From the NCBI RefSeq assembly GCF_900120195.1, contig NZ_LT635539.1, positions 915,257 through 979,256 on the forward strand: DNA of 64,000 nucleotides, given 5' to 3'. Below the pieces are notes generated by a model that searched no databases, had not been told where the DNA came from, and saw nothing but the letters and a program-made list of their open reading frames with translations. Position numbers and translations under genes: made by a program. The stretch is from Blautia sp. Marseille-P3087. Its GTDB lineage: Bacteria > Bacillota > Clostridia > Lachnospirales > Lachnospiraceae. Numbering within the stretch: position 1 is the stretch's first letter; each line of letters opens with the position of its first letter. This document shows, in pieces, positions 18,368 through 42,837 of the stretch.

Positions 18368-18416
18368 TTTGCTCCTCCTTTTGTGAATTTCTTTCATGAA
18401 TCGTTGTTTCAACAAC

Positions 18417-18623: not shown

Positions 18624-19325
18624 TTATTTTACGGTTACTCTGATTGTATAGTATTTCCTTCCGGATCTTACTGTGATCCTTGTGGCTCCTTTTGCCCGTG
18701 CTGTAATGACACCTTTGCGGTTTACAACTGCTACATTCCTGTTGGAAGAGGCATAGGTAATTCCTTCCTGGGAAGTGATCGGATTGATTACTGGTTTCAG
18801 GGTCAGTTTCTGTCCTCGCTTCAGAGTTTCTCTGGATCTCAGTCCACTGATGCTTGTTGTTATAACTTTTGTGGACTGAACTTTGACATTCAGACTTGCC
18901 TTTTTACCACTCTTAAGTGTTACTGTAATCTTTGCTGTTCCGTTCTGTCTTCCGGCCGTGATCACGCCTTTGTTGTTGACAGTTGCAATTCTTCTGTTGT
19001 TGGATGTCCAGGACTTCACAGAATCACCGTTTGCCATTGTGACTTTGATCTTGTTGGTACTGCGTCTCTGCTGAAGTCTGATGGAAGTTGCATTCAGTCT
19101 GATTGTTGCCGTAAGCTTCTTTCCATAGTTTTTTGTGACTGTCTTACCGCATACAGAGCATTTTCCCTGCTGTTTCGCCGGTGCAAATACAGTTGCTTTC
19201 GCAGTTGTCTTCCATGTATATTTATGGTCATTTGTCTTTGCAATGGTTTCTGTCTTTGTTTCTTTACAGACTGTACAGGTGTAAGTCTTCTCTCCTGTAT
19301 TCTTGCAGGTTGCTTTTTTTGTTAC
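18624..19325 (-). repeat. Copy 2 of 702-bp duplicated C-terminal module
   Basis: Same length as 13679-14380 and gapless relative to it. It encodes TYTCTVCKETKTE, CSVCGK and two Big_2-like repeats ending in ITVRSGRK...VTVK. Lysine/arginine-rich throughout, which would suit binding to anionic wall polymers in place of sortase anchoring (inference). Confidence 0.88.
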
Positions 19326-24739: not shown

Positions 24740-25734
24740 GAATACTGTTTCTCCTGTTCCAGTTCTTCATATATTTTTCTGTACGTAAGTCCGATTTCTG
24801 TTCCGACTGATTTCTGGCTTCTGGAAAGTGCAGTCCGCTCTGCCAGATTCAAAAATACCGGAAGGAAACAAAATACAGCAAAGGCAAGATACGTTATCAC
24901 TGCCAGCACTGGTCCACAGCCGGAGGAAACATGATTTATACCCGTCAGTTGAATCTTCGGATCATAGACAGCAAAGGCAGCCCCCTTCGCGCATCCAAAA
25001 GCAAATACTGCTGTCAATATGGCAAACGCGCCGGTAAGCCACCCGTCTCTTTTTGTATATCTGTATATTGAAAAGGCTGTGCGTCCATGCAGCCCATATC
25101 CTCTGCTTCTCATGGAATCTGAAGTTTCTATTGCATTTTCCAGTGCCCATGTAACCAGAATAGAAAGTATATTCATTCCATGCTTCGCCTTCGCAAGTAT
25201 ACTTCCATTTGTCACATCGCGCCCCATTGCTTTCTGTCCGTTACGGATTACCCTGAGCTGTGTGGTAAATCTCGGCACAAATCTGAGTGCCATAGACAGA
25301 ACCAGTGACAATGCCGGTATGATCCTGCCAAAAAGATATACAAATTTGTCTGTTGTCATTACACAATTGTAACAACTGAACCACTGAATCACAATGAACA
25401 TCACAGCACCGAGCACCAGACCATACACCAGTGCTTCCAGTGTGATCCAGTTTCCACTGGCTTCTACGTAATACAGCATTGTCACACCATAGTGGTTAAA
25501 CAGCGGATTTAATAATGCTACAATTAAAAGACCGGGCAGCGTTATGAGAAAATTCTGTTTTAATGTTTTTTTCCATCCATTCAGAAGAAAGGCATACATC
25601 ACTGCTGCGATATATGAAATCAGCAGAAATACCGGATGCTGATTGAACATTGTAAACAAAAATACCACAGCGAAGTAAAAAAAGTTCAGAAAAGGATGGC
25701 AGCCTGAAAAGGCATCGTTTACTTTGTCATTCAT
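24736..25734 (-). CDS. ECF transporter T component (EcfT)
   Basis: 332 residues with several membrane helices and the coupling helices typical of EcfT: SDSMRSRGYGLHGRTAF near residue 215 carries the X-R-G motif that fits into the ATPase grooves. The C-terminus is charged. It overlaps both neighbours by 4 bp (ATGA junctions), so stoichiometric translation with the propeller protein and ATPase is expected. It links ATP use to toppling of the S component. Confidence 0.93.
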   Translation of the reverse strand: MNDKVNDAFSGCHPFLNFFYFAVVFLFTMFNQHPVFLLISYIAAVMYAFLLNGWKKTLKQNFLITLPGLLIVALLNPLFNHYGVTMLYYVEASGNWITLEALVYGLVLGAVMFIVIQWFSCYNCVMTTDKFVYLFGRIIPALSLVLSMALRFVPRFTTQLRVIRNGQKAMGRDVTNGSILAKAKHGMNILSILVTWALENAIETSDSMRSRGYGLHGRTAFSIYRYTKRDGWLTGAFAILTAVFAFGCAKGAAFAVYDPKIQLTGINHVSSGCGPVLAVITYLAFAVFCFLPVFLNLAERTALSRSQKSVGTEIGLTYRKIYEELEQEKQYS

Positions 25735-28700: not shown

Positions 28701-30839
28701 CTGTCCTGTTTTTGTAGAAACAGAGTAAAGAATCGATGTGTTTGTATAATTTCCCATATCCGATCCATCATCCGAACCAAATACAAGATAATCGCCAGAT
28801 GCATAGGCCCCTGCCCAATAAAATCCGCCTTTATGGCTGTACTTCCATGTACAGTGCTTTATTTCATCTCCCCTGGACGGATCTTCATCTGTAACAGACA
28901 GTGCAAAATAGATTCCTGCTGTCGTTTCAGAATTCCAGGTACCTGTATAAATATAACCGTCTCTGTACGTGATAGGGCTAAGAGTCTGGCCGCCTACCGT
29001 TTCACTGATCCACAGAGATTTCAGCGTCGTTGCACTGACTGCCTGTATCTGGCCTCCTCCAACCTGTGCAAACAGCATGCCCTCTGCATAGGTAAGCGGA
29101 TTCAGGGCAAATACCATACTGCCTGCCAGTTCTTCACTTACTGCGACGATCTCACCGGTGTTTCTGTCCATTTTATAGATAAATTTGCCGGAAGCTGCAT
29201 AAAGATATCCGCCTAATACCAGTGGTGGTGTTACAGCTGCGTTCCAGTCACCGCCCATTTTTACAGCCCACTTCTGAACAGTTTCATCCACGTTCGACGG
29301 GGTTTCCGAAGAAATAACTCCATTGTTGGTGTCACTGTTTCTGTAATTGATCCAGTCATTGTCCTCTATATCCGGCTGTCTGGAATCACTCTCTTCAAGA
29401 TCTGCTGTTATCTCGCTCTGTTCGCCTGCCACAAAACTTCCCTGGCACGCTTTATATCCATAACATGACACAGTCCACTGATATGTTTTACCGAGCATCA
29501 GTCCATCATACAGAAGGCTGTTATCTGCCGATGCAGAAATACGCAGTCCCTTTTCATCGTACACACATACAACCGCATTTGCGGGACTGACTTTGAATTC
29601 TGTACTTGCTCCTGCCAGTTTGGACACAATCAGATGATACTCACTCTCAGTAGTATAGGTCTTTCCCTGATACTCCGGGTCATTATAGCCACCTTCTGCT
29701 GACATATGGAAGGTAATATCCGTATCACCCTCTTCATTCAGTGGAACCTGTATAGTATTTCGATTCTGCAGTGGAACTCCATTTACGGTCAGCCCATAAT
29801 ACGCATCAATTGAATACGGTTTTACATTTATCTGCACAGAATCTACATCTGCAGCTACAGATGCAGTATAAATTCTGTTTGCACTGTTAAATTTTTCTCT
29901 GATAATGTTTGTTGCAAGGTCACTGTCCGTCGGAAGATAACATCCGATGGACGACAGATCCAGCCTTCGAAGAACAATTATCTTATATGTCTGCTGGTGT
30001 TCTGCATTCCCTGCAGTAATCGTATAAACACCTCTGGATCCTCCGTTCGCGCCCTTCGCAAAAACACGCCCGCTCAGACGGTATCTCTTTCCTTCTGAAA
30101 ATGCCTTCCGATCCATGTTCAGAGTTTTCTGTGCACCCTCGACTGTCCAGCCGGACATTGTTACTTTTGCATCATCCGGAAGTGTATCCATCAGATCCGC
30201 AGATACGTAAAACGCTGTTGCCAGTGCATAGGAGCTGTATTCTACCGTATATACTTTGCCGCCAAATTCAGCATCCAGATCTTCACGTCTTTCCGGATTA
30301 ATTGTAACTGCATCCGGTGAGCCGCTGTAACTCGTATATACCGTCAGATTTTCAAGAAAATCGGCTGAATCATCTACTTCAGCTGCACTTTTGGAATCCT
30401 CCTCTGTTGTTTTGATATCCGCTGTCGCTTCCTGAGAAGGATTTTCTTTATTTTCGTCTGAAGATGTTTTTTCGTCATTCGTATCTTCCGGAGTTTCCGG
30501 TCCTTCATTTTGGCTGTTGTCTCCATCCGGAGTTTCGTCCGGCTCTTCCTCTGTATCTCCACTGATATCAATATCTTCTCCGGAATCCGTATTATCATCC
30601 GGAACTTCCGGCTCTTCATCAGGACTTTCCGGTTCTTCGCCCGGAATTTCTGATTCTCCACCCGGAGTTTCCGGCTCCTGTTCAGCTTCGCCGGAATTTT
30701 CTGCTGTTTCCGAAAGTTCAGACTGTTCCGTGATATTCTCAGTATTCGATTGTGAAAGTATGGCATCCTCTGCTCCGTAAACCGGAACACTTCCCAGTAA
30801 GAGAGCCAGAGACAAAAGTGCTGTCAGAATTTTTTTCAT
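25731..30839 (-). CDS. Giant surface protein with PQQ-type beta-propeller and cadherin-like domains
   Basis: 1702 residues. Signal peptide (…LGSVPVYGA), a ~140-residue acidic Pro/Glu/Ser linker, cadherin-like beta-sandwich domains (about 160-410), a short beta domain, then a PQQ-type beta-propeller (about 495-930; repeated A-x-xx-G-x-x-Y patterns such as GYLYAASGKFIYKMDRNTGEIVA, GRIYIGVCGQ), two further cadherin-like units, a Ser/Gly/Lys-rich spacer and a C-terminal membrane helix with RAQHYYRRRMAK inside. The protein is thus anchored by its own helix. It sits directly upstream of the ECF genes with ATGA overlap. By analogy with BtuG propellers, corrinoid binding is inferred. Confidence 0.85.
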   Translation of the reverse strand: MKKILTALLSLALLLGSVPVYGAEDAILSQSNTENITEQSELSETAENSGEAEQEPETPGGESEIPGEEPESPDEEPEVPDDNTDSGEDIDISGDTEEEPDETPDGDNSQNEGPETPEDTNDEKTSSDENKENPSQEATADIKTTEEDSKSAAEVDDSADFLENLTVYTSYSGSPDAVTINPERREDLDAEFGGKVYTVEYSSYALATAFYVSADLMDTLPDDAKVTMSGWTVEGAQKTLNMDRKAFSEGKRYRLSGRVFAKGANGGSRGVYTITAGNAEHQQTYKIIVLRRLDLSSIGCYLPTDSDLATNIIREKFNSANRIYTASVAADVDSVQINVKPYSIDAYYGLTVNGVPLQNRNTIQVPLNEEGDTDITFHMSAEGGYNDPEYQGKTYTTESEYHLIVSKLAGASTEFKVSPANAVVCVYDEKGLRISASADNSLLYDGLMLGKTYQWTVSCYGYKACQGSFVAGEQSEITADLEESDSRQPDIEDNDWINYRNSDTNNGVISSETPSNVDETVQKWAVKMGGDWNAAVTPPLVLGGYLYAASGKFIYKMDRNTGEIVAVSEELAGSMVFALNPLTYAEGMLFAQVGGGQIQAVSATTLKSLWISETVGGQTLSPITYRDGYIYTGTWNSETTAGIYFALSVTDEDPSRGDEIKHCTWKYSHKGGFYWAGAYASGDYLVFGSDDGSDMGNYTNTSILYSVSTKTGQLLDKLTGVNGDIRTTVSFDNGYVYFATKGGYLYKVKMNDDGTFGQVLSYNLGGMATATPLVYKGRIYIGVCGQGGQFNADGGHHFDVIAESDNELKLAYSVSVPGYPQAAPLLSTAYEKEDFNGDGKPDGRVYVYFTANAFPGGIYLLKDEPGQTKGAAEEIFTPDTDQQQYSISTLCADKDGTIYYKNDSNYMMAIETNVACLRSVEATSDHGKVTWDRSYRKDRSTYELSCEDGTKKVTLKFGIPQGAALTVNGKVCDGTFSASFQGEDVPVTAVVSKNGKSTKYVFTVTGDHSSALLANLTVSTSNAYTDGGSRIGLKPEFTSEQKEYMTETYTGNSTRMNIFALPEEDSASVTAEGIRGIKKITNFGKTSGSGKAHRIAVYFGDNESEALVKVTVQTRTGKTEVYQVLLRRADVYPPVLSGKKAVRYENNKIRVTFTSNEKGSYAYVSGKAGETPSFTGDFTETMAQGENTLDLTVPDKEEKVLYILAKDETGNIMEAPYAISIHVYAGINVAIKVTPSDAEIKVVNQDGQEVIPKNKKYPFIVGNTYQITISRDGHETLNETVVAEKTKTEYSYSLKSTMNSDTSLKNLYVSSSDTYGKGIQKLAPSFKKQETKYTAVYGAERKSLNIWAQTTNKKASIQVYALAGIRGSTVQKDETISQSTAAGGHAFWKIVFAGGEKEAKVRIQVTAEDGTKKNYYVTLKLTDITAPVLKKVSASRLSVDKASVVYKSSEKGYRYYQVVDAGKKIPKLNIKGKGTEIQAGTDTIMLKGLTDGEKDLVIVVKDSTGNVSDQLVIRIPDVKKKGQIPGNGEDNNKNNIAARPGSGGHKSEATTPGKGSDGNGSKENLKLVNGNGSGSDSTKDKNGNSSGESDGQKQSGKTKDTSKKTSKTEKSEKTKDKESKSGKKDTEDSEETDKNEKTETADGEAVETVSANTDENLAETVLTEAKTIPLHVWILILVAGLGTAYMIFWIRAQHYYRRRMAK

Positions 30840-32195
30840 TTACCATTCTCCCCAGGTTTCTCCGTTTTGCCCGGCTCCCACATCAGCTCCTGCATAGAGT
30901 GAGAATCTGAGTCTTACCACATCTCCGTCTGCCGGGAAATATGCGGACATTCCGTTGTTCATATATTCACCGTTTACAAAATAAAGCCACCCTGAATCCA
31001 TTGTGAAATCAAATTCGCCCAGCCAGTCATTATCATGCTCTGTCAGCTGACTGTTTACTTCAGTAAGATGTGCCAGCAGTTCCTCCGGGATCGCCGCCCC
31101 GGCTGTCAGTCCGCTTCTTCCGATTGACCTAAGATAAAATCCGGAATTGGCTTCACCAATATTTCTCCAGTCAAAACCATTTTCATCCAATACTCTCAAT
31201 AATACCGATGCCATGGATTCTCCCTGATAATATTCGACAGCTTCCGGTCCCAGAAGATTCCCAAGACCAACTGTTCCCGCTTCTATACTGAGCGAAATCG
31301 TTCCTTCCGGTTCCTGCTGCCCATCCTCGCCTTTGTAGATTGTGTATTCCGGAATTGTGGTGCTCCAGCCTTCACTGTCTGTAACCTTTATGCTGACTGT
31401 GTTTGCACCATCTTCCAGTTCGATACGATAAGAAACTATTCCCTGTGCATCTGTTCCGATGGAATACAGTTTCTCCCCGTTTCCATATACTTCAAGTGCT
31501 GACGAGGAAAGTACATTTCCATGATAATCAAAAGCCTGTACAAAAAATGTCCTGTACGATGCATTGACGGTTTCTCCGTTTTCAAGATCGGTCGCCACAG
31601 ATGGATATTTATTTTCTTCCGGCGCAGGTTCCGGATCATCATCCTCTGATGGAACTTCAGTGTTTTCCTGATTTCGGTCATCATTCTGCTCCGGCTGTGT
31701 TTCATCGCCATTTTCACCGTCATCGTTATTTCCATCATCATAGTGAACTTCATTCGGAAGGACTTCTTCTTCATCAGTTTCCTGATTATCTTCTGCCTGA
31801 GCAGAAGTTTCCTCTGGTTCACCTGCTGTATTGTCTACAGTCTGCCCGGAATTATCTGAATTTTCGGAGATCTGCTGTTCCGGCTCCTGCTCCTGTTCCT
31901 CTTCTGTTTCCGGCTCCTCCGGGTCTTCCAGTGTCTGCGCCTGTACTTCTGTACTCTCTGCTCCATTCTGATTATCTGTGTCCGCCCCTGCATATGTAAA
32001 GCCTTTTCCCAAATATCCTTTAAAAGAACTGTCTGCGCTGATTCCCTGCACCGGATTGTCTGCTATTTCCGGCTGTTGTCTGCCAAGTCCCCAGACAATC
32101 GAGGCCCCAAATAAAAGCAAACCTGCTATCAGGAGTACAGCTGCCAGCAAATCTTTCTTTCTGTTTTTTTTATTTTGTTTATTACGATTTTTCAT
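30840..32195 (-). CDS. Membrane-anchored DUF4430 (transcobalamin-type) surface protein
   Basis: 451 residues. Very basic N-terminus, one membrane helix (about 16-36) that may be an uncleaved anchor, a ~150-residue Glu/Asp-rich stalk, an Ig-like segment (about 200-290) and a C-terminal DUF4430 domain (about 295-445) with SGWLYFVNGEYMNNG and FPADGDVVRLRFSLYAG. That W/Y-x-VNG and DGD pattern is the DUF4430 hallmark, a family (PF14478) also found in human intrinsic factor and transcobalamin. It abuts the propeller gene with no spacing, so both are from one message. Likely presents or relays corrinoid near the membrane (inferred). Confidence 0.86.
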   Translation of the reverse strand: MKNRNKQNKKNRKKDLLAAVLLIAGLLLFGASIVWGLGRQQPEIADNPVQGISADSSFKGYLGKGFTYAGADTDNQNGAESTEVQAQTLEDPEEPETEEEQEQEPEQQISENSDNSGQTVDNTAGEPEETSAQAEDNQETDEEEVLPNEVHYDDGNNDDGENGDETQPEQNDDRNQENTEVPSEDDDPEPAPEENKYPSVATDLENGETVNASYRTFFVQAFDYHGNVLSSSALEVYGNGEKLYSIGTDAQGIVSYRIELEDGANTVSIKVTDSEGWSTTIPEYTIYKGEDGQQEPEGTISLSIEAGTVGLGNLLGPEAVEYYQGESMASVLLRVLDENGFDWRNIGEANSGFYLRSIGRSGLTAGAAIPEELLAHLTEVNSQLTEHDNDWLGEFDFTMDSGWLYFVNGEYMNNGMSAYFPADGDVVRLRFSLYAGADVGAGQNGETWGEW

Positions 32196-32231: not shown

Positions 32232-34547
32232 TTACAGCAATCTTTCTATATATTTTATGATCCACAGATCATACCATCTGGTTTTTATCTTTAATTCTGT
32301 CTTTATTTTTTTCACACATTGTTCTGCGGTTTTTCTTTCTTCATCTGAGATGTTATGCGGACTGAATGCAGCTTTCTCACCAATCTGCCATGTATTCTCA
32401 TAAGCTTCTGTCAGTTCATCCGTGTATGTTCCATGTGCATAAAGCTTTGCCGCATATCCGGTCATGGCTCTGACCGCAGCTCGGTTATCAGCAGCTGCAA
32501 ATGCTTTTTTTCGTTTTGCCTCTGCAATGATCCGCTGACCACTGATTGCCAGGAAAAACATCATGCAGAAAATATCAAACACAAACAGTAAAAGAAGTAA
32601 AAATCTCGCCAGACCCATGATTGCAAGTTTCAGATTCCAATGTGTCTGAATCTCCTGCGAATTATCTGTCTTTGTTTCTGTTTCCGGCAGAGATGCCGCC
32701 TTGCTTCCCTCTGCCTCAAGTCCGACGGTAAGATCCGGTTCTTCCATAACTCCATAATATTCCGGAGTCATTTCCACCGGCACCCATCCGAGACCATCTA
32801 TGTAGATTTCCGTCCATGCGTGACCGTTTTTACCCGAAATCTGAATGCCGGCACCTTTGTTTTTGTCTTTTATATCATCTGGTGTTACCAGATACCCTTC
32901 TACATAACGTGATGGTATTCCATAATAGCGGAACATCAGTGCTGCCGCTGTAGCATAATGAACACTGTGCCCGATTTTGGATTTTGTCAGGAAATTTTTC
33001 GTAAAATCTCCGGCTCCGTTATACACATCTGTCGCTGTACTGTATGTCATATTTTTTTCGAGATATGCGCGGATTCTTGAGATAGCAGTGTAATAATCTG
33101 TATGTCCCTGCTCTCTGTTTCCGGCATTTCCCAGCTCCTGTGTAAACAGGGCTTCCAAAACCGCCGGAAGTGCCGTATCTTCTTCATAGACAAATGCATT
33201 GTAATAGCTTTCGTCTTCTCTCAGATTGCGTGCATCACCTTTTGATAAAACCTGATATCCCTCTGCTCCCAATGTGGTGAAATCTTTCACGAGATTCCCC
33301 ATAGACTTCAGCGTATAATCACGTTTTCCAAACAATCCGCCTGACCTTAGGGTACTGTCTGTCAGAGATGTTTCTCCGGTATATCCTTCCGGAAGTTCTG
33401 ACATCTCGTAAGGTGTATAAAGATATCGGCTGTCCGCATTCTGATTCTGTATCCGGATACTGCCACTTTCCTTTGAAAGCGAGTCGTCTTCTACCACATT
33501 TCTTATTCCTGCAATCTGCATCTGTCCATAGAATCCATCCTGATGCAGCCAGTAAAACAGATCCCGGACTTTCCATGCGTCTGCAGTCGAAATTGATTTC
33601 CATTCATCCCCGTCATACACACTGCCTACAAATCCTCTGAGATAAAGCGAATCCGGCTGATCCATCTGTACTGTCAGCGCTGTATCATCAGATGCTGTCC
33701 AGGCACCGGCTGATTTCAGTCTGCCGTTCGGAAGACTGTTCACTTTTCCTGTCTTGAAGCGGAAGCGGTCTGTCTGATCCAGAAATTCCGTTCTGGCATT
33801 GGCAACAAGTTCGGAGCTCTGATACTGCTCCTGTGGCACGATCATCCGAAAAACGCCGCCACTCACTGCCACTGTCAGGCATACCAGAATTGCTCCTGCC
33901 AGAAATACCGCAGTATTTTCGACAAAATTCTGTCCTGTATTTCTTTCAGAATGCATCCTGTTTACAAGCAGAAATGAAGCCAGATAGAAGACAGCCAGTT
34001 TTACCCGACCTGGTTGAATATTCAGCATAAAAATCAACACCGGAAAGCCCATACTCCACAGAATCGTAATAAAACGCAGCCTCAGTCTGAGTACTGCAAA
34101 AGCCACCAGTCCGGTCACCAGCGCCAGCAGCATCCAGAATATAAACTGGTCATTTGCCATATTTTCTTCTGACACGGTATACTGAGTCAGGTAAATTCCT
34201 GCTTTGCTTCCCAGTACTTCTACCGTCTGATTCCACAATCCGGTCATTCCATTCTGAACATGAGTATGTAAAACCATAAACAATGCTGCTGCACATACAA
34301 AACACGCCACACCGACCGGTACTCCGAAGCGCTGCCATCTTTCAAGCAGAAGCCAGAGCAGAATGCTTCCTCCTGTCAAAGCGACAAACATGACAGGCGC
34401 ATGGCCTTTCGTCAGTATATGAATCATTTCTTCTGTACCCACTCCAAATACCAGAGTCAACAGAACTGCTTCCAGAAGGATTCCCGGAAACAGTTTTTTA
34501 TTAAATTTATTTATTTTTTGCTGTTCCTGTGAAATCCATAACTCCAT
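32232..34547 (-). CDS. TgpA-like membrane transglutaminase-fold protein, nucleophile Cys replaced by Ser
   Basis: 771 residues. Six to seven N-terminal helices (about 20-225), an extracytoplasmic transglutaminase-like domain (about 290-610) and a further helix near 640-665 with a cytoplasmic tail (DUF4129-like). The core reads GHSVHYATAAALMFRYYGIPSRYVEGY; relatives have Cys where Ser528 (codon 32964-32966, AGT) stands. The His region HAWTEIYIDGLGWVPVEMTP is intact. Hence either an inactive binding domain or a serine variant. It overlaps the DUF58 gene by 41 bp, with GAGGAAT as ribosome site. TgpA/DUF58/MoxR trios usually act together on envelope or exported proteins; the target is unknown. 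Confidence 0.88.
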   Translation of the reverse strand: MELWISQEQQKINKFNKKLFPGILLEAVLLTLVFGVGTEEMIHILTKGHAPVMFVALTGGSILLWLLLERWQRFGVPVGVACFVCAAALFMVLHTHVQNGMTGLWNQTVEVLGSKAGIYLTQYTVSEENMANDQFIFWMLLALVTGLVAFAVLRLRLRFITILWSMGFPVLIFMLNIQPGRVKLAVFYLASFLLVNRMHSERNTGQNFVENTAVFLAGAILVCLTVAVSGGVFRMIVPQEQYQSSELVANARTEFLDQTDRFRFKTGKVNSLPNGRLKSAGAWTASDDTALTVQMDQPDSLYLRGFVGSVYDGDEWKSISTADAWKVRDLFYWLHQDGFYGQMQIAGIRNVVEDDSLSKESGSIRIQNQNADSRYLYTPYEMSELPEGYTGETSLTDSTLRSGGLFGKRDYTLKSMGNLVKDFTTLGAEGYQVLSKGDARNLREDESYYNAFVYEEDTALPAVLEALFTQELGNAGNREQGHTDYYTAISRIRAYLEKNMTYSTATDVYNGAGDFTKNFLTKSKIGHSVHYATAAALMFRYYGIPSRYVEGYLVTPDDIKDKNKGAGIQISGKNGHAWTEIYIDGLGWVPVEMTPEYYGVMEEPDLTVGLEAEGSKAASLPETETKTDNSQEIQTHWNLKLAIMGLARFLLLLLFVFDIFCMMFFLAISGQRIIAEAKRKKAFAAADNRAAVRAMTGYAAKLYAHGTYTDELTEAYENTWQIGEKAAFSPHNISDEERKTAEQCVKKIKTELKIKTRWYDLWIIKYIERLL

Positions 34548-35688
34548 TCATATTCCTCATTCCCAGTTCCTGATGATAATTTTCTTTTGTATAAATGATC
34601 TCATCTGTATTCCGGTCCGGATTCTGTCCACAGCGCAGTACCGTGACCAGTCCTTTCTGTTTCAGATATTGGACTTCATGGTCTTCCGCTTCCCCCGTAA
34701 TGTAGATATAATTCGCAAAATTTTTTATTCCGGGATTCTTCATATATTCCCTGACTGTCTGCGCTTCTTTATTTCCGCCGCCATATCTCAGAAATAAGTA
34801 CATAATATTTTCATATGCCTGCGCAGAATGAACCTTCTCTATATGCAGGCATCCATTTCTTCCGTCATATACCGCTGCCTGACATGGGATTTTTCTCTCC
34901 ATGAAGCTCAGAAGCAGTGCTGAAAAAATTTCCATAACGGCTTCTGCTTTCTGCGGATTGCTTTCCTTCTGAAACGGTTCCGCAAGAATCAGCACTGCAT
35001 CATCTACCGGAAAACTTTTTTCGCGGATCACTGTGCTGTCTAATTTGCCACTCAGTTTCCAGTGTATCTGTCTGACGCTGTCGCCCGGTCGGTATTCACG
35101 AATATCAAAAGTCTCACCCGGATCATCACCCGGGCGAAATGTCGAATAGCGGAAGCTTTCCATATCAAAGCCTTCCCGGGTCAGAACTGACAGATCCAGT
35201 GTCTGTCTTTCCGGCATTACTACAATATCTGCATGTGCATTTCCTTTTCGTTTCTTATGAAAAATCTGAAGGAAATCTCCACTTTCCCATTTTTCGAAAG
35301 AAAATCTCAGACATCCGCACCACTGACTGCTTCCTTCAAAAGTACATTTGATTTCATTTCTGCCCATCAGCGAAAACGGCAGCAGTATGTTTTTTTCTTC
35401 TCCGGTAAAGGTATTGTTACATGTTACTTCACCTTTCCCGTAAAAAACCGGCCACAGGGACTGGTTTTCCAGCTCCAGTTTTCCCTGAAAAATGCTGTCC
35501 TTTTCTGTCACACGAGGAAGTTTCAGTGTACTCTTTATATGTCTGCCCGACAGCTGACAATAAACTCCTGACATGACAAGCACCACACCGGATACCGCCA
35601 GTATGCATACATACAGATATTCTCCCGTATAAAGAGCAGCCAGTGCCATACATATAAACCAAATTACAATAAGAATCCTTTTTTTCAT
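34507..35688 (-). CDS. DUF58 domain protein (vWA-like), MoxR partner
   Basis: 393 residues. Two short N-terminal helices (about 5-45), a beta-rich region, and the DUF58 signature REYRPGDSVRQIHWKLSGK near residue 195-215 followed by a vWA-like segment. DUF58 proteins are found beside MoxR ATPases and transglutaminase-like membrane proteins, exactly the order here. It starts 1 bp after the MoxR stop. Role in this operon is probably assembly or maturation of the exported binders (inferred from position only). Confidence 0.92.
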   Translation of the reverse strand: MKKRILIVIWFICMALAALYTGEYLYVCILAVSGVVLVMSGVYCQLSGRHIKSTLKLPRVTEKDSIFQGKLELENQSLWPVFYGKGEVTCNNTFTGEEKNILLPFSLMGRNEIKCTFEGSSQWCGCLRFSFEKWESGDFLQIFHKKRKGNAHADIVVMPERQTLDLSVLTREGFDMESFRYSTFRPGDDPGETFDIREYRPGDSVRQIHWKLSGKLDSTVIREKSFPVDDAVLILAEPFQKESNPQKAEAVMEIFSALLLSFMERKIPCQAAVYDGRNGCLHIEKVHSAQAYENIMYLFLRYGGGNKEAQTVREYMKNPGIKNFANYIYITGEAEDHEVQYLKQKGLVTVLRCGQNPDRNTDEIIYTKENYHQELGMRNMNGVMDFTGTAKNK

Positions 35689-36624
35689 TTATCCCTCTAC
35701 TTTTGGTGACGGTACTGTCTCAAGGATCTCACCCAAAATCTGTCTTGCTGTTTTTTCTTCATATCTTGCACGTGATTCAAGAACCATTCTGTGTCCTGCC
35801 ACATCTTCAAAAACATTTACCACATCTTCCGGCACCATGTAATCACGTCCTGCCAGATATGCGGCAGCCTTTGCCATACGGCACAGCGCAAGCGTTCCAC
35901 GCGGACTTAAACCCAGCATAATCAGTTCATGTTTTCTTGTTGCTTCTGCAAGATCCGCTATATAGGATAAAACTTCATCAGATACATATACTTTTCTGAC
36001 CTGTGCCTGCAATTCAAGAATTTCCTCACTGTTCAGCACTGCTTTTGCATTCTGAAGTGGATTGACCTCCTGACGGTCACGAAGAATGTCTACCAAACTG
36101 CCATGGTCCGGATATCCCATTGTCGTACTGATCATAAAACGGTCAAGCTGTGATTCCGGAAGCATCTGTGTACCGGAAGACCCAACCGGGTTCTCTGTCG
36201 CAATTACAACAAACGGCTTCGGTACCGGATGACTCTCTCCGTCTACAGTTACCATTCCCTCTTCCATGACCTCAAGAAGCGCAGACTGCGTTTTGCTTGA
36301 AGTACGGTTGATCTCATCTGCCAGAAGCAGATTGCACATCACAGAACCCGGACGATAAATAAAACTATTGCTTTCTTTATCATACATCGTAAATCCTGTT
36401 ACATCTGACGGTACAACATCCGGTGTAAACTGTATTCTCTGAAATTCCATTCCCATCAGTCGGCTGAGCGCCAGTGCTGTCGTTGTCTTTCCCACTCCCG
36501 GGACATCCTCCAGAAGTACATGCCCTTCTGCCAGAACCGCCATAATGATCTTGTCTGTGATCTCACTTTTTCCTTTTATGATCTTTGCCAGTTCTGTTCT
36601 GAGTTCTCTGATCTTATCTGCCAC
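35689..36624 (-). CDS. MoxR-family AAA+ ATPase
   Basis: 311 residues. Walker A EDVPGVGKTT near residue 38-47, Walker B LLLADEINRTSSKTQSALLE near 105, sensor 1 VIATENPVG near 150 and arginine-finger region, all typical of MoxR. Cytoplasmic chaperone-like ATPase that works with vWA/DUF58 proteins. 35 bp after the alpha-barrel lipoprotein gene and immediately before DUF58. Confidence 0.95.
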   Translation of the reverse strand: MADKIRELRTELAKIIKGKSEITDKIIMAVLAEGHVLLEDVPGVGKTTTALALSRLMGMEFQRIQFTPDVVPSDVTGFTMYDKESNSFIYRPGSVMCNLLLADEINRTSSKTQSALLEVMEEGMVTVDGESHPVPKPFVVIATENPVGSSGTQMLPESQLDRFMISTTMGYPDHGSLVDILRDRQEVNPLQNAKAVLNSEEILELQAQVRKVYVSDEVLSYIADLAEATRKHELIMLGLSPRGTLALCRMAKAAAYLAGRDYMVPEDVVNVFEDVAGHRMVLESRARYEEKTARQILGEILETVPSPKVEG

Positions 36625-36659: not shown

Positions 36660-37652
36660 TTATCTGTGATCTGTCATATCGTAAAAAGTATTTTTTTCAT
36701 CCTGAAGTCTCTCATAGGAAACCAATGCACACAATGCCTGATCTGTTGCCATCGGATCACTTTCACCATCCTGTGTGTGCGAAAAACTGCCATCCTTCTG
36801 ATAATACTTCATCAGAATGTCATACAGTCCTTTTCCATCCTTCTGAAAACGTTCATCTTTATTACAGTCGATTCCCACCGTACTTAAAGCAATCATCGTC
36901 TGCGATACCGATTCGGAACTTTTTTCTCCATATACGGTATAACCACCATCTGCATCCTGCGCATCTGCCAGAAATTCAATTCCACGATCAATTGTCTGCT
37001 GTACATTTTCCTCACTGCTATATGCTTCCAGACACTGTAAAGTCATCGCTGTTATATCGATATCCGCTTCATCTGCATTATCATCCATGGAAAAACCTCC
37101 GTCTGTTTTTTCCTGTTTCAAAATGTAGTTCAGATATTTCTGCTGAAGTTCTCCGTCTGTTTCTTCGCTGTCCGCATTCAGCGCCAGTAATGCAAATACC
37201 GCACCGTTCAGTCCCTGCGCAGTCACTGTATCAAAATCATCCAGTTTTTCTTTCAGATCATATCCGCCAATATTCGAAGCATCTTCCCCGATTGCCGTCA
37301 GAGCAAGAATCACTCTGGAATACTCCGTGTATTTATTTTCACTTAAGATTCCATCCTGTTCTTTCAGATATTTTTCTACATTTGCTCTGTATTTTTCAAA
37401 GTAATTACTGTCTACATTTTCTTCCGAGCGTGCCAGGGCAATTACTGTCCACTCCCCGCCAAGAGAATCCACTGCCGGATCTGTCACCGTTTCTTGTTCA
37501 TAAGCGGCCGTTTTGTGAATTGCGTCTTTTAACTCAGGCGTCTTCGCACTGGTGCATCCCGTCATTGTAAGCACCAGTATCAATGCAAGTGCTGCCGGAA
37601 TACCGTTTCGTTTCACTTTTTTATAAAGATACTTTTTCTTTGTACAAATCAT
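36660..37652 (-). CDS. Lipoprotein with prenyltransferase/squalene-oxidase repeats (alpha/alpha barrel)
   Basis: 330 residues. Lipoprotein signal with lipobox MTGC near residue 33, then alpha-helical repeats with QW-like signatures: DGGFSMDD...DITAMTLQCLEAY, DADGGYTVYG...SQTMIALSTVG, DGESDPMATDQALCAL. Such repeats build an alpha/alpha barrel, the fold of the N-terminal domain of intrinsic factor and transcobalamin. Its start overlaps the stop of the DUF4430 lipoprotein (ATGA), so the two domain types of those vertebrate proteins are made side by side as two lipoproteins. A general prenyltransferase activity is unlikely given export. Corrinoid binding is inferred. Confidence 0.85.
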   Translation of the reverse strand: MICTKKKYLYKKVKRNGIPAALALILVLTMTGCTSAKTPELKDAIHKTAAYEQETVTDPAVDSLGGEWTVIALARSEENVDSNYFEKYRANVEKYLKEQDGILSENKYTEYSRVILALTAIGEDASNIGGYDLKEKLDDFDTVTAQGLNGAVFALLALNADSEETDGELQQKYLNYILKQEKTDGGFSMDDNADEADIDITAMTLQCLEAYSSEENVQQTIDRGIEFLADAQDADGGYTVYGEKSSESVSQTMIALSTVGIDCNKDERFQKDGKGLYDILMKYYQKDGSFSHTQDGESDPMATDQALCALVSYERLQDEKNTFYDMTDHR

Positions 37653-38188
37653 TTTTCTGAATCTTTTCCTTTACTTTTTTCATATTTATTTCCGACATCT
37701 GCTCCAAGATTGCAGGTGTAACGCCATTCAATCTTATCACCGTCTTTCAGTTTGTACTCTGAGCATCCGTAGTTTGGATACTTTCCGTTTACACTGTACA
37801 TCCAGCCGGAGTTTTTGCCACAGTCCATTTCATACAGCTGATTGATTCCTTCTATATAATAGCTTTTGTACAACGGAGTATACTTGGATGACATATGTAT
37901 TCCATTTTCACCGCAGACTTTCTTCAATACATCAAAAACTGTTTCTCCGCCCTGAAAGGCAACCTCAGTCTCTTTAAGTATCCATCCATCTTCCGGAATA
38001 AATTCTTCTTTTGTCTTTTTCAGGTTATCCATATTATCCAGAATATTACTGCATTCAATAGAAATCGTACAGTTTCCATTCGGTAATTTTTCTCCGCCAA
38101 ATGCACAACTGCTGAACCAGCAGCAAATAAGCATAATACAGCAGATAACAGCCAATGCTCTGGTTCTTTTTTCTGATTTTATTTTCAA
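37649..38188 (-). CDS. DUF4430 lipoprotein (transcobalamin beta-domain type)
   Basis: 179 residues: signal with lipobox FSSC near residue 28, then almost only a DUF4430 domain. Key pattern SGWMYSVNGKYPNYG, then YKLKDGDKIEWRYTCNLGADVG, matches the domain family that forms the C-terminal part of human intrinsic factor and transcobalamin. It overlaps the LRR gene by 4 bp upstream and the alpha-barrel lipoprotein by 4 bp downstream. Together the two lipoproteins could clamp a corrinoid between them as the two domains of transcobalamin do (inference). Confidence 0.88.
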   Translation of the reverse strand: MKIKSEKRTRALAVICCIMLICCWFSSCAFGGEKLPNGNCTISIECSNILDNMDNLKKTKEEFIPEDGWILKETEVAFQGGETVFDVLKKVCGENGIHMSSKYTPLYKSYYIEGINQLYEMDCGKNSGWMYSVNGKYPNYGCSEYKLKDGDKIEWRYTCNLGADVGNKYEKSKGKDSEK

Positions 38189-39066
38189 CCTTCTTTTCTC
38201 TCCATCATTTCTTCCACATATTCACATTTAAAGCCATATTCCTTTGCATAATGATCTACCTTACTGCCTTTTCGACAGACAAGTGTACAACTCTTGTTGA
38301 TGATCCACGGTCCAATCTCATCCGGATCATGCAGAATCTCCAGACGTTCCAGTCTGCTGCATCCGTGAAATGCCCAGCGACCGATTGTCTTCACACTTTC
38401 AGGTATGTAGACTTCTCTTAAATGTTTACAGCGAAAAAAGGCACTTTCACCAATCACTTTCAAATTTGGCGGAAGCTCCAGTTTCTCCATCGCGCAGAAA
38501 TAAAAGGCTTCCTCCCCAATTTCTCTCACCGTAACCGGTAAATTGATTTCCCTGAGCTCTTTACATCTGTAAAATGCCCTGCGCCCAATTACCTGCGTAC
38601 GGAGTGGCAATCTGACGGTTGTAAGATTTACACAGGAATCAAACACTGCCTCTGAAATAACCGTACAACGTGAATTATTCGGAAACTTCACGATTCGAAG
38701 TGTATTACACTCCTGATATGCCTGTGCTCCCAGTCTCTCCAGTGACTCCGGAAAAACAACTTTTCGAAGTCTGTGATTTTCCGCAAATGCTCTTTTCTTT
38801 ACTTCCAGCAAACCCTCTGGAAAAACTACTGCTTTCTGAAACTGGCATCCTTCAAATGCCTGTTTACCGATGATTCGGCATTCCTGTGGCAATACTACCT
38901 CATGTACTTTGCCATTATTTAGAAAACATTTATCGCCAATATATCTATATCCGGCAGGAATCCTGCCAGCCTCGCCGCCCCTTCTGTTTCGCTCATTCTG
39001 CGCAGTATATGTACGGACATCATATCTTAACTGATTCCACCCGATTTCAGTATTCAGTTTTTCCAT
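38185..39066 (-). CDS. BspA-type (LRR_5) leucine-rich repeat protein, no signal peptide
   Basis: 293 residues. At least eight ~23-residue LRR_5 units (for example FEGCQFQKAVVFPEGLLEVKKRAF, FYRCKELREINLPVTVREIGEEAF). Most family members are exported, but this one starts MEKLNTEIGWNQLRYDV with no hydrophobic signal, so it appears cytoplasmic. It is the first gene behind riboswitch unit C and overlaps the DUF4430 lipoprotein gene by 4 bp. AGGGGG lies 12 bp before the ATG. Function in the operon unknown. Confidence 0.85.
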   Translation of the reverse strand: MEKLNTEIGWNQLRYDVRTYTAQNERNRRGGEAGRIPAGYRYIGDKCFLNNGKVHEVVLPQECRIIGKQAFEGCQFQKAVVFPEGLLEVKKRAFAENHRLRKVVFPESLERLGAQAYQECNTLRIVKFPNNSRCTVISEAVFDSCVNLTTVRLPLRTQVIGRRAFYRCKELREINLPVTVREIGEEAFYFCAMEKLELPPNLKVIGESAFFRCKHLREVYIPESVKTIGRWAFHGCSRLERLEILHDPDEIGPWIINKSCTLVCRKGSKVDHYAKEYGFKCEYVEEMMERKEG

Positions 39067-39092
39067 GTCTCAATTTTCCCCCTAAAAACAAT

Positions 39093-39124
39093 AAAAACAG
39101 AGTCCCATTCATAATGGGCCTCTG
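39093..39124 (-). terminator. Riboswitch expression-platform terminator (unit C)
   Basis: Minus-strand CAGAGGCCCATT (39124-39113) pairs with AATGGGACTCTG (39109-39098), one mismatch, followed by U5 (39097-39093), 27 bp before the LRR start codon. Confidence 0.85.
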
Positions 39125-39253
39125 TCCTCTATACAACGTGTTAAATCTGACTTATTATGCAAGAAGCATATTCACAGCAGCTATTTGAACTGTTCCGGAT
39201 TCTCACCGGATTACGTTAAACTGCCTTTTACGACAGACCACGCCTGGTTATCC
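39093..39253 (-). promoter_or_regulatory. Cobalamin-type riboswitch, unit C (head of the 11-gene operon)
   Basis: Aptamer core AATCCGGTGAGAATCCGG (core 39195-39209), then ACAG, GCTGCTGTGA, a hairpin (ATATGCTTCTTGCATA) and AAGTCAGAT. This is the closest of the three to the canonical short cobalamin aptamers of Clostridia, except that AACACGTTGTATAG stands where ACCTGCC is expected. It should switch off the LRR-to-S-component operon when corrinoid is plentiful. Confidence 0.85.
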
Positions 39254-39265
39254 AATTTTTTCTAA

Positions 39266-39294
39266 AGTATATCATTTTGATAAATTTATGTCAA
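39266..39294 (-). promoter_or_regulatory. Promoter TTGACA-17-TATACT for riboswitch unit C
   Basis: -35 TTGACA (39294-39289) inside the end of the TIM-barrel gene, exact 17-bp spacer, -10 TATACT (39271-39266). Confidence 0.9.
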
Positions 39295-40026
39295 TAAAGA
39301 CTGTACACATATCTGTACATCTTCTTTATTCATACATTCGATCGTCCATGTGCGTGTCTCCGTCCGCGGTAAATACGAAAGAACTTCTCTCCACGGCAGA
39401 TTTCCTCTGCCAAGTCCAAGATGAGAATCTCTTTCTCCGGCATTGTCATGGATGTGAACATGGCGGACATAAGGTGCCAGTTCCTCTGCCCACTCAATAA
39501 CCGAAATATCAGAGTAACAATGTGCATGCCCGATATCAAAGCAGAGTCCGAAGTCCGGATGCTCCACCTGCTCATATACATCACGCAGAAGCCGCCAGTC
39601 CTCATCGAGAACATTTTCCATATCAATTTCGAGTCCCTCTTTATCTTGCAGGAAATCGTTAAAGAACCGACTCACCTGATTCGCCCAGCCCTGACGGTAA
39701 TATACTGCAGGGATCATTCCTGAATGGTATACGATTTTTTTTGCGCCAAGTAACTTACCGACCTGATAACACTGCTCAAACCGCTCCATCGTCACACGGC
39801 GGATCATGCTGTCAAATGTTGCCGGGATGAGATCCAGAAACGGGCCATGCAGTGTCAGTGGCGGATTTCCCATCTTTACAAGACGTTCTTTGTATGTTTC
39901 TATCGTTTTGTCCAGATGGTCAAGATTTTCCGAAATGGAAAATTCGATACTTTCCACTCCAAGTTCACTGCTTTTTAAAAGTTCCTGCATTTCTTCATCC
40001 GGCAGCAGATGACTGATATAGATCAC
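39286..40026 (-). CDS. Sugar-phosphate isomerase/epimerase-like TIM-barrel protein
   Basis: 246 residues from a GTG at 40026; an in-frame TTG at 40050 would place AAGGAG inside the gene, so the GTG, 12 bp after that site, is preferred though the spacing is long. AP_endonuc_2/xylose-isomerase-like barrel: LTLHGPFLDL, KIVYHSG, LEIDMENV, FDIGHAHCYS, VRHVHIHDNAG, TIECMN carry the metal-binding Glu/Asp/His set. Reaction unknown; the family includes isomerases, epimerases and endonuclease IV-like proteins. Upstream is DUF951. Confidence 0.85.
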   Translation of the reverse strand: MIYISHLLPDEEMQELLKSSELGVESIEFSISENLDHLDKTIETYKERLVKMGNPPLTLHGPFLDLIPATFDSMIRRVTMERFEQCYQVGKLLGAKKIVYHSGMIPAVYYRQGWANQVSRFFNDFLQDKEGLEIDMENVLDEDWRLLRDVYEQVEHPDFGLCFDIGHAHCYSDISVIEWAEELAPYVRHVHIHDNAGERDSHLGLGRGNLPWREVLSYLPRTETRTWTIECMNKEDVQICVQSLLT

Positions 40027-40054
40027 GTTATTTGTTCGCTCCTTTGACAACAGA

Positions 40055-40264: not shown

Positions 40265-40996
40265 TTATTTCTGATTTACTTTTATCTGTGAAAAGACCTG
40301 TCCGATCGGCTCCTTGATCAGAAGATCGGCATTTCTGTCTCTCGGTGTGGAGGATTTATTGATCACTACAAGCGCTTCGCCGCGGAAATAGTCAATAAGG
40401 CCAGCTGCCGGATATACTGCCAGCGACGTTCCTCCGATGATCAGAATCTGCGCATCCGAAATTGCTCTCACAGATTCTTCGATCGTATTTGTATCCAATC
40501 CCTCTTCATAAAGCACCACATCCGGCTTAATCATACCTCCGCATTCGCAGCGCGGCACACCGGTACTGTGTTTCATATGTGCGAAGTCAAAAGATTTTCC
40601 ACAGCGCATGCAGTGATTACGGTAAACACTTCCATGAAGCTCCAGTACCTTCTGACTGCCTGCCATCTGATGAAGGTTATCAATATTCTGTGTGATCACC
40701 GCTTTGAGTTTACCTGCCTTTTCAAGTTCGGCAAGTTTCAGATGTGCAGCATTCGGTTTCGCTGTATCACATAGCATCTTATCACGATAAAATTTGTAAA
40801 ATTCATCCGGATGGCTTAAGAAAAAGCTGTGGCTTAAAATTGTCTCCGGCGGAAAGTCATATTTCTGATGATAAAGTCCATCCTGAGAACGGAAATCCGG
40901 TATTCCACTCTCTGTCGAAACACCGGCACCTCCAAAAAATACGATGTTGTCATGCCCATCGATCAGTTCCTGTAATTTCATAATCTTTTCATCCAT
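40265..40996 (-). CDS. cobB: NAD-dependent protein deacylase (sirtuin)
   Basis: 243 residues from the ATG at 40996 with GGGAGGG in front; a longer open frame overlapping the sortase gene is rejected. NAD site GAGVSTESGIPDFRS (residues ~23-37), TQNIDNLHQMAG, catalytic His in ELHGSV, zinc cysteines CMRCG and CECGG (two pairs), and GGTSLAVYPAA complete a class U/III-type bacterial sirtuin. It removes acyl groups from lysines, coupling to NAD. The cobB name here refers to the sirtuin and is unrelated to cobalamin synthesis. Confidence 0.94.
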   Translation of the reverse strand: MDEKIMKLQELIDGHDNIVFFGGAGVSTESGIPDFRSQDGLYHQKYDFPPETILSHSFFLSHPDEFYKFYRDKMLCDTAKPNAAHLKLAELEKAGKLKAVITQNIDNLHQMAGSQKVLELHGSVYRNHCMRCGKSFDFAHMKHSTGVPRCECGGMIKPDVVLYEEGLDTNTIEESVRAISDAQILIIGGTSLAVYPAAGLIDYFRGEALVVINKSSTPRDRNADLLIKEPIGQVFSQIKVNQK

Positions 40997-41009
40997 GGAA
41001 AACCCTCCC

Positions 41010-41918
41010 TTATCCTGCGATATCAAGAGATATCTCATCCGTATTTTCCTCATCTGCTGTACTGTCCGTATTCGTCGCAGCACCATCTGCACCATCTGCA
41101 TCCTCCGCATCAACTCTCTTACCCTGCACAACAAAACGGGTAGATTCATTGCCGGTACAGGTAGACAATGTCACGATCTTATCTTTGATCGTAAGATCTG
41201 TATCATCTGTCTGGATTTCGGAATAACCTTTTATCGTCTCCAGGTATTTCTCGAACTCTTCGCCCGGACCTTTAAACAATGTATAGGTATCGCTGTTTAC
41301 ACCGGTTGTATAAGCAGAAATGATCTCGTAACGGTAATTGCGCTCCGGTGTCAGGATCCAAAAATATTTATCCTGCTTATAAAGCTTGTCATCCTCTCTG
41401 AACTTCTTCAGATGTCCGAACATCGAACCATTCTTCATATTATGGCCATATACAAGTGTATTACAATCGCTGAAATCACCACTGTTTTCATAATCTACAA
41501 AGATTGTTCCGGCAAAGTTGTAATTTTTCTCATAGGTTTGATGCAGGTATGTCTGGTTATCTTTACCTTTGACGATCGGATAGCTGATATCCGGAAGTGC
41601 ATCTACATAAATCCATCCCACAACATCCTCATTGACACTCTTGAGTTTGTCAAAATCCACCTCGATCGGCGGTTTTAATTGTGCATTTGGTCCGGCAACT
41701 TCGGCACTGTCAGCATCACGCTCGGTAACTGCCATTTCCTCGATCTGATTGTATTCATCTGTACCTTTTTTGTATTCTGTGTAAATATGGTAGAGATTAA
41801 ATGCCGCGTAGCAGAAAACCACGATTGCCGCGATCAGTGCGATCGTCAGCAGCACATCACTCTTCTTTTTTTTCTTTTGTTCAGGCTGTTTCTGAGTGTT
41901 GTTTTTGTTTTCTTCCAT
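41010..41918 (-). CDS. srtB: Class B sortase
   Basis: 302 residues from the ATG at 41918, which lies 7 bp after AAGGAG; upstream ATGs in the open frame are too near or have no site. One N-terminal helix (about 22-44), sortase domain with catalytic His in LVYGHNMKNGSMF, Cys in VTLSTCTG and Arg in STRFVV, and a Glu/Asp-rich C-terminal tail. Transpeptidase that ties sorted proteins to the wall. No LPXTG or NPQTN substrate is evident in this window, so its clients are elsewhere. The tail after the domain is unusually long and acidic. Confidence 0.92.
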   Translation of the reverse strand: MEENKNNTQKQPEQKKKKKSDVLLTIALIAAIVVFCYAAFNLYHIYTEYKKGTDEYNQIEEMAVTERDADSAEVAGPNAQLKPPIEVDFDKLKSVNEDVVGWIYVDALPDISYPIVKGKDNQTYLHQTYEKNYNFAGTIFVDYENSGDFSDCNTLVYGHNMKNGSMFGHLKKFREDDKLYKQDKYFWILTPERNYRYEIISAYTTGVNSDTYTLFKGPGEEFEKYLETIKGYSEIQTDDTDLTIKDKIVTLSTCTGNESTRFVVQGKRVDAEDADGADGAATNTDSTADEENTDEISLDIAG

Positions 41919-42837
41919 AATCATACTCCTTAGGCTTAGTTTTATTGCTGCGTACCTTTTCGGGCATTCCAAGAAGGACAATTGCGATCACAGTCAGGAA
42001 CAGTCCGATAAATTCGATTGCGGCCGGCATCTCCCCGAAACAGAAAATACCGAATACCATCGCTGCCACCGGCTCACCGGCTGCAAGAATGGAGACTTTC
42101 CCCGCATCCATATACTGAAAACCAATCGTATAAAATGTATACGGAAGAACTGCACCACAGATTGCATGAAGTACCATAAATATAGCACCATGCACAGGAG
42201 CTTCTGTAAAATACGCTCCAAGGATCTTCCAGTCGGTAAACGGAATCAACGTCACTGCAATCACAACCATACAGTAAAACGTGATCGTCAGTCCGGAATA
42301 GCCTCTTTTCATGGCAATTTTGGTAAACAGGCTGTACATGGCATAAAAAACACCGCTTGCCACTCCGAGAAGAATCCCGTAACCGCTGATTTTCATACCT
42401 CCAAGGTTTTCCAGCAATCCGCTTGCAAGACTGCATCCGAAGACTGCAAGTGCTGCACAGCCGGCCTTACGTATAGTGATCTTTTCTTTAAAAAACACTC
42501 TCTCAAGAATCAGGACATACACCGGTGACAGGCTCAGAAGTACTGTTGCCAGTGACAGGTGTACATAATTTACTGCTTCATTATAAGTAAGATTTACCCC
42601 AAACATGCCCAGCCAGCTTGCCAGCACAAAGATTCACAGATCCTTCAGACGTATTTTCAGCTGGCTCTTATCAATTACAGCAATCCCTATCAGCATCAGA
42701 ATCACAGAAATCATCGTTCGTGATCCGACGATCGTCGCAGTGTCCATTCCATAGCCGCTTAAAGACCGTATAAAAATCCCGACAGAACCCCACAGGATTC
42801 CTGCTGATACCGGGAAAAACCAGGCAACTTTTTTCAT
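41881..42837 (-). pseudogene. EamA/DMT-family transporter, interrupted by in-frame TGA
   Basis: One continuous frame encodes a ten-helix drug/metabolite exporter, but codon 68 (42636-42634) is TGA. Residues before it (MKKVAWFFPVSAGILWGSVG...LKIRLKDL) and after it (IFVLASWLGMFGVNLTYNEAV...) join without frameshift, and family members have Trp in the D-L-W-I-F position, so a single TGG-to-TGA change is the simplest cause. The second part has internal ATGs but no ribosome site was found. It overlaps the sortase start by 38 bp. Possibly a fixed loss of function, read-through, or sequencing error. Confidence 0.85.

Follow-up and report, generated by a model that had tools for sequence, protein, structure and literature searches.

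Gene organization of the locus

The window, by which we mean the whole stretch of 64,000 nt that was analysed, belongs to Blautia sp. Marseille-P3087 (assembly GCF_900120195.1, contig NZ_LT635539.1, positions 915,257-979,256, forward strand). Its minus strand carries a unit of 11 genes, which extends from 39066 down to 22167 and in which neighbouring genes overlap or are separated by at most 36 bp. The second and third genes encode the two proteins of interest, P1 and P2. In the order of transcription, the features of the unit, its leader, and the two surface protein genes that follow are:

39092-39231, minus strand: operon leader matching the AdoCbl-type cobalamin riboswitch (RF01482, 40.4 bits, full model)
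38185-39066, minus strand: BspA-type leucine-rich-repeat (LRR) protein, first gene of the unit (Pfam LRR_5, E 3.1e-53)
37649-38188, minus strand: P1, stand-alone DUF4430 (transcobalamin beta-domain-like) lipoprotein (Pfam DUF4430, E 9.9e-24)
36660-37652, minus strand: P2, alpha/alpha-barrel lipoprotein (Pfam Prenyltrans, E 7.9e-10)
35689-36624, minus strand: MoxR-type AAA ATPase (Pfam AAA_3, E 1.6e-55)
34507-35688, minus strand: DUF58 protein (Pfam DUF58, E 7.1e-6)
32232-34547, minus strand: TgpA-type membrane transglutaminase (Pfam Transglut_core, E 1.6e-22; TgpA_N, E 1e-14)
30840-32195, minus strand: P3, second DUF4430 protein (Pfam DUF4430, E 2.2e-6)
25731-30839, minus strand: P4, large surface protein with cadherin-like repeats (Pfam Cadherin-like, E 4.4e-19)
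24736-25734, minus strand: EcfT transmembrane component (Pfam CbiQ, E 5.1e-6)
23012-24739, minus strand: fused EcfA1-EcfA2 ATPases (NCBIfam ECF_ATPase_1, E 4.9e-106)
22167-23033, minus strand: CbrT-like ECF S-component (phmmer 6fnp_A, E 7.4e-15)
18624-21896, minus strand: surface protein with Big_2 repeats (from the translation)
13679-18433, minus strand: surface protein with carboxypeptidase-regulatory-like and Big_2 repeats (from the translation)

P3 also has a weak match to Cadherin-like below the Pfam cut-off (E 0.0012). The last two proteins contain segments that by eye resemble a divergent DUF4430, for which Pfam gives no match at E up to 0.1, and the first of them is perhaps not part of the unit because its gene starts 270 bp past the S-component gene. 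P4 has a weak PQQ/BamB-propeller match just under the Pfam cut-off (PQQ_2, E 1e-5), and the B12 catcher BtuG is a propeller (PMC6143338). The trio of MoxR, DUF58, and TgpA genes (32232-36624) perhaps serves surface-protein processing. It recurs near barrel or DUF4430 genes in the loci L033, L034, L035, L046, and L048, and adjoins homologues of P3 and P4 in L069. Upstream of the unit, the minus strand encodes a Sortase-domain and a Sir2-family protein (41010-41981 and 40265-41149).

Domains and predicted structures of P1 and P2

P1 comprises 179 aa with a TTG start codon, and its DUF4430 domain spans residues 81-158. P2 comprises 330 aa and matches SQHop_cyclase_C (E 2.5e-6) as second Pfam family. 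Judged by eye, P2 contains the lipobox-like site MTGC; the site in P1, FSSC, is weak if taken alone, and orthologues of P1 carry LCGC and TAGC. The LRR gene and P1 overlap in TTGA (38185-38188), P1 and P2 in ATGA (37649-37652, 4 bp), and the pair of overlapping genes for a DUF4430-only and an alpha/alpha-barrel lipoprotein described in the initial annotation is therefore real. Four-bp ATGA overlaps are commonplace in operons, and this one indicates translational coupling of P1 and P2 at most, and nothing beyond. Transcobalamin, intrinsic factor, and haptocorrin (2bb5, 2pmv, 4kki) share with P2 and P1 the combination of an alpha/alpha barrel and a DUF4430 beta domain, DUF4430 being located at the C-terminus of the transcobalamin proteins (PMC4350170). 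That the domains at the locus are those of transcobalamin and intrinsic factor, placed on separate chains, had already been noticed in the initial annotation and is borne out by the Pfam matches and the structure models. Members of the transcobalamin/intrinsic factor family have both domains on one chain. Here, they are found on two ORFs, and P1/P2 are therefore not classed as an intrinsic factor.

The AF2 model of P2 is an alpha/alpha barrel (pLDDT 95.7, pTM 0.94). The Foldseek matches of this model are a mixture of terpene cyclases, sugar-acting alpha/alpha barrels, transcobalamin, and intrinsic factor, with terpene cyclases ranked first and transcobalamin 2v3n at rank 6 (E 2.9e-5, TM 0.60). 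VIA also has terpene cyclases first, finds terpene cyclases and epimerases (Z up to 24) closer than transcobalamin, and contains no transcobalamin among its best 50 matches, which excludes nothing. Given that squalene-hopene and drimenyl diphosphate cyclases are the best matches of the barrel in both sequence and fold, the barrel might be regarded as a terpene cyclase or prenyl-handling enzyme, in which case the B12 link of the operon would be about something else. However, none of the 71 aligned barrels has the DXDD motif of class II cyclases at the corresponding site, where a T is invariant and a D and an M are kept in 70 of the 71, and on this ground the barrel was rejected as a terpene cyclase. 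Because P2 is in addition a predicted lipoprotein encoded beside a CbrT-like transporter, and its relatives are linked to cobalamin riboswitches, an enzyme of this kind is extremely improbable.

A natural fusion of both domains from Cohnella thailandensis (L124:8993-10369) gave a model that is good per domain (pLDDT 92, pTM 0.75). Its best 15 Foldseek matches are all transcobalamin, intrinsic factor, or haptocorrin (E 6.7e-10 to 9.6e-8), and are followed by the isolated human transcobalamin beta domain (TM 0.73-0.74 by target length, rmsd 2.7 A). VIA, which aligned mostly the barrel, places terpene cyclases first for the fusion as well, and the absence of transcobalamin among its best 50 matches again excludes nothing. 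Sequence-profile searches with either domain or both retrieved no transcobalamin or intrinsic factor chains from the PDB. The fusion model cannot be superposed on transcobalamin in its closed form: across the two domains, the rmsd is about 21 A. As the model is open, a closed pocket is not observed. Human TC-beta and TC-alpha (CD320-bound), when expressed separately, have been found to co-elute only with cobalamin added (PMC5599065). The open predicted conformation fits this behaviour, although a wrong idea would look alike.

Riboswitch and transporter

The RF01482 match ends 25 bases ahead of the LRR gene and has an E of 2.4e-6 in the 261 bases searched. Its 40.4 bits are below the Rfam gathering score of 50, and in an Rfam scan of the whole window no family scores above gathering. 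In three congeners, the corresponding sequence ahead of the LRR gene has 36.5 bits for RF01482 (L033), and 28.5 (L034) and 32.3 bits (L035) for RF00174, whose gathering score is 31.5, so that only L035 passes. From these sequence comparisons, the leader in the window is taken as a divergent but genuine cobalamin riboswitch. Immediately ahead of it lies an AP_endonuc_2 (xylose-isomerase-like TIM barrel) gene (39286-40050, minus strand), a homologue of which two congeners have within the operon, flanked by EcfS and the gene for the barrel (L034 10285-11046). The cobamide-remodelling enzyme CbiR is a member of the AP_endonuc_2 superfamily (PMC7733943).

The window encodes a complete set of an S-component homologous to CbrT, EcfT, and two ATPases. 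At E <=1, phmmer finds 6fnp_A as the only ECF match of the S-component among PDB sequences, and 6FNP is ECF-CbrT, the B12 transporter of Lactobacillus delbrueckii (PMC5997447). Thus, the cobalamin-riboswitch operon proposed in the initial annotation holds, with a sub-threshold AdoCbl-type leader and a CbrT-like ECF transporter. The S-component scores 40.5 bits with the Pfam riboflavin S-component family (cut-off 26.7), and 27.9 bits with the NCBIfam riboflavin model, far under the cut-off of 99. Because it passes the Pfam riboflavin cut-off, family models alone cannot name the ligand. Instead of B12, the system might take up cobinamide or a different cobamide, or else a cofactor of an unrelated kind. 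Other ligands are allowed for by the authors of the 2007 study of bacterial transcobalamin-like domains and by one of its reviewers (PMC1796856), and the riboflavin score and the adjacent gene of the CbiR superfamily (PMC7733943) could be seen in the same light. Against this, the riboswitch and the similarity to CbrT point to corrinoids, as far as sequences can tell and without telling which one, and we regard a different ligand as rather improbable.

The same genome has one cobalamin riboswitch some 2.4 kb ahead of the gene for a glycyl-radical enzyme and another one ahead of a cluster with a BtuC-like permease (below the cut-off of the model), and encodes a CbiG C-terminal domain. The CbiG domain and the permease cluster suggest that the species may have its own corrinoid synthesis and a further candidate importer. 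The role of the operon may then lie in the uptake of one particular corrinoid or in supply during periods of scarcity.

Distribution in other genomes

P2 has matches in 23 of the 98 genomes searched, its own genome counted. DUF4430 is present in 22 of these 23 genomes and the RF00174 cobalamin riboswitch in at least 17. Linkage was assessed over the genomes with a barrel match, including that of the window: at least 18 of the 39 barrel matches are preceded, within 12 kb, by a cobalamin riboswitch on the same strand, while 0.18 are expected from riboswitch density, a value based on rounded genome sizes and on counting paralogues as independent. On either strand, a cobalamin riboswitch lies within 12 kb of the barrel in at least 13 of the 23 genomes.

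A wider scan with one genome per species and a fused query yielded 509 related stretches, of which the best 80 were analysed. Most of these are from Bacillota and include Lachnospiraceae and Oscillospiraceae as well as Paenibacillus, Aneurinibacillus, and Lacticaseibacillus. EcfT, a fused chain, and a chain with DUF4430 alone occur together in a MAG of Bifidobacteriaceae (L091) and in one of Bathyarchaeota (L094), and a Coriobacteriales MAG (L087) has a fused chain on a short contig. Among the genomes of these best 80 of 509 stretches, 48 were searched for the cobalamin riboswitch, which was found in 37, and at least 25 of the 48 loci have it on the same strand less than 1 kb upstream. Fused versions of P2 and P1, the existence of which the initial annotation had considered, are present in many genomes and show the domain order of transcobalamin.

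The gene content was tallied for the 47 loci of the best 80 of 509 that contain EcfT, leaving out the other 33 of the 80. A DUF4430-only chain is encoded in 46 of the 47, and in 41 directly upstream of EcfT. In the window, in contrast, P1 does not adjoin EcfT, with six genes in between. DUF4430-only and fused barrel-DUF4430 chains occur together in 31 of the 47 ECF loci, a share that is biased towards fusions because the best 80 of 509 were picked by a single fused query; in one locus a fused chain is present and a DUF4430-only chain is missing. Loci without a fused chain amounted to 15 of the 47 at first count and to at most 12 after Pfam scans, because the barrels of L104 (E 0.007), L129 (E 0.011), and L138 (E 1.2e-5) turned out to match DUF4430 weakly. 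Nine of these at most 12 loci have barrel chains of at most 534 aa, seven of which were scanned with Pfam and gave no DUF4430 match; the other two, L110 and L121, have a second, weak DUF4430 frame beside the P1-type gene.

Pairs of the P1/P2 type are found in other genomes, too, in either gene order. Barrel chains can be lid-less: six examples of 294-343 aa are not long enough to include a DUF4430 domain (window, L033, L034, L035, L041, and L045), and a DUF4430-only gene adjoins the barrel in four of the six cases and lies on a separate contig in L034 and L035. According to a rough pattern, a hydrophobic N-terminal stretch is present in all 46 P1-type chains scored (members with E < 1e-25), 15 of which also show a lipobox; among 19 short barrel chains, 17 have the stretch but no lipobox. 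In the genus of the window, the barrel chain also has a lipobox-like site by eye. In two congeners (G022 and G041; L056 9462-9980 and L057 4580-5164) the P1 orthologue lies away from the barrel on another contig, where it adjoins thiE and is near thiD, and no cobalamin riboswitch was found there in the 13-14 kb searched.

P1 as a distinct subunit

The initial annotation had called the pair a split intrinsic factor. A division, within this lineage, of a one-chain intrinsic-factor-like protein into separate genes for P1 and P2 would be compatible with the commonness of fused chains in transcobalamin domain order. It would also be compatible with the barrel tree, in which lid-bearing and lid-less chains are interspersed: the label barrel-only changes 23 times, at least 15 of which are forced, and lids therefore seem to have been acquired or lost repeatedly. 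The DUF4430 tree, however, gives a different picture. It contains 126 rows, 81 from DUF4430-only and 45 from fused chains, over 131 columns, which are few for that number of rows. Matches covering less than 60 profile positions were excluded from the trees, and barrel fragments under about 200-240 residues from alignments and trees. A P1-type set is formed by 67 of the 81 DUF4430-only rows, including P1 of the window, and by none of the 45 fused-chain rows. The branch has an SH-aLRT of 96 without a filter on the DUF4430-only rows, and of 82 if these are prefiltered by a P1-type profile and the fused lids are left unfiltered. The remaining 14 DUF4430-only rows, 13 of them weak matches, fall outside the set. 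With or without the filter, P1 of the window thus groups in the P1-type set and not among the fused lids. Together with the coexistence of DUF4430-only and fused chains in 31 of the 47 ECF loci, this indicates that the P1-type chain is a distinct subunit and not a broken half. The cutting of one intrinsic factor into P1 and P2 is accordingly disfavoured and very unlikely; P2 may come from a barrel whose lid was lost, but that lid is not P1.

Possible modes of corrinoid binding and transfer

The operon is with high probability an ECF uptake system for corrinoids, the vitamin B12 family, and the reading of P1 and P2 as B12 binders is well supported. We infer that the ligand is a corrinoid, that P1 and P2 hold it jointly, and that a hand-over step follows. 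P1 and P2 would form the outer, ligand-catching part of the system. The P2 barrel and the DUF4430 domain of P1, each on its own membrane-tethered chain, would most probably enclose a corrinoid, which would also be the glue between both, and P1 would pass it on towards the CbrT-like S-component. That P1 and P2 share one ligand is slightly more probable than not. For the whole chain of events, joint catching by P1 and P2 and transfer by P1 to the S-component, we consider the chances to be even, our confidence being reduced by the separation of P1 from EcfT in the window. The two-chain reading is favoured by the AdoCbl-type leader, the S-component with CbrT as nearest relative, the riboswitch linkage in relatives, the Foldseek matches of the fusion, and the DUF4430-only chain in nearly all ECF loci (46 of 47, upstream of EcfT in 41; best 80 of 509). 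The human transcobalamin halves that meet only with cobalamin provide a precedent (PMC5599065). Counted against it are the open fusion model, the ranking of terpene cyclases first by VIA, the lack of a transcobalamin or intrinsic factor profile match in the PDB, the six genes separating P1 from EcfT, the sub-threshold riboswitch, and the P1 orthologues that adjoin thiamine genes in G022 and G041.

Because of the fused barrels in 31 of the 47 loci (best 80 of 509) and of P3 in the window, P1 need not be the lid of P2. It could be a separate receiver: the barrel would close with another DUF4430 domain, its own in species with fused chains and, in the window, that of P3 or of a different surface protein, whereas P1 would take the corrinoid and dock on the ECF transporter. 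The presence of DUF4430-only chains even beside barrels with their own lid, the separate position of the 67 rows of the P1-type set, and the hydrophobic N-termini of P1-type chains, which most short barrels share without a lipobox, agree with such a role. It is harder to reconcile with L099, L100, and L119, where the P1-type chain is the sole DUF4430 chain found in the locus and the short barrel has no Pfam DUF4430, although these genomes have one or two further DUF4430 matches. The distance of P1 from EcfT in the window is also counted against it. We regard this alternative as possible but doubtful.

Joint holding by P1 and P2 could also be combined with transfer in that the barrel holds the corrinoid, and the tethered P1-type chain swaps in as lid and then docks on the CbrT-like S-component. 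We propose this lid exchange only tentatively, and it is somewhat less probable still, its chances being slightly reduced since P1 and EcfT are not neighbours in the window. Release of B12 from haptocorrin, intrinsic factor, and transcobalamin reportedly requires proteolytic degradation (PMC11107200). A two-chain sandwich could loosen, and B12 would be freed without the proteolysis needed by the one-chain animal carriers. The two-chain form thus suggests a proteolysis-free release, and its loose build from two pieces makes capture and hand-over testable. To our knowledge, ECF transporters are usually pictured without a separate extracellular substrate-delivery protein; if lid exchange were true, ECF importers of B12 would gain an extracellular substrate-delivery pair.

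Comparison with known systems

Bacterial transcobalamin-like domains were described by Burroughs, Balaji, Iyer, and Aravind in 2007, as fusions with toroids in both orders and as stand-alone forms, in operons with CbiO and CbiQ, and B12 scavenging was predicted for them (PMC1796856). The secreted SLBB and toroid proteins encoded with a CbiO/CbiQ-like transporter in the window correspond to this SLBB transcobalamin-like clade, with its secreted toroid-SLBB proteins, stand-alone SLBB proteins, and CbiO/CbiQ operons. The idea is therefore not new in outline, and the claim of a new arrangement in the initial annotation has to be restricted. It may still apply to the pairing of a lid-less barrel with a conserved DUF4430-only chain in CbrT-like operons, since the portions of that paper available to us describe no partnership between one chain with only the toroid and another with only SLBB (PMC1796856). 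In addition, the word riboswitch does not appear in its main text (PMC1796856), and CbrT was characterised only later (2018). Among the matches listed in the openly licensed literature, no title indicates that these bacterial proteins have been tested experimentally. The apparent novelty lies in the occurrence, together with lid-less barrels, of a conserved P1-type chain that stands alone and is encoded immediately ahead of EcfT in 41 of the 47 ECF loci (best 80 of 509; not in the window).

ECF-CbrT of L. delbrueckii has an S-component homologous to that in the window (E 7.4e-15), but a barrel or DUF4430 partner is not mentioned in the available parts of its description, the main text of which does not contain the word lipoprotein (PMC5997447). 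BtuG of Bacteroides is likewise a surface lipoprotein that catches B12 for an importer, but, unlike P1 and P2, it is a seven-bladed propeller and partnered with BtuB (PMC6143338). A recurrent two-chain relative of intrinsic factor beside a CbrT-like importer provides concrete candidate genes for B12 capture in Gram-positives. It also offers a view of the bacterial stock proposed as source of the animal B12 carriers, for which Burroughs et al. suggested a transfer of the fused form (PMC1796856). The animal carriers consist of one chain, whereas two separate lipoproteins are combined with an ECF importer here.
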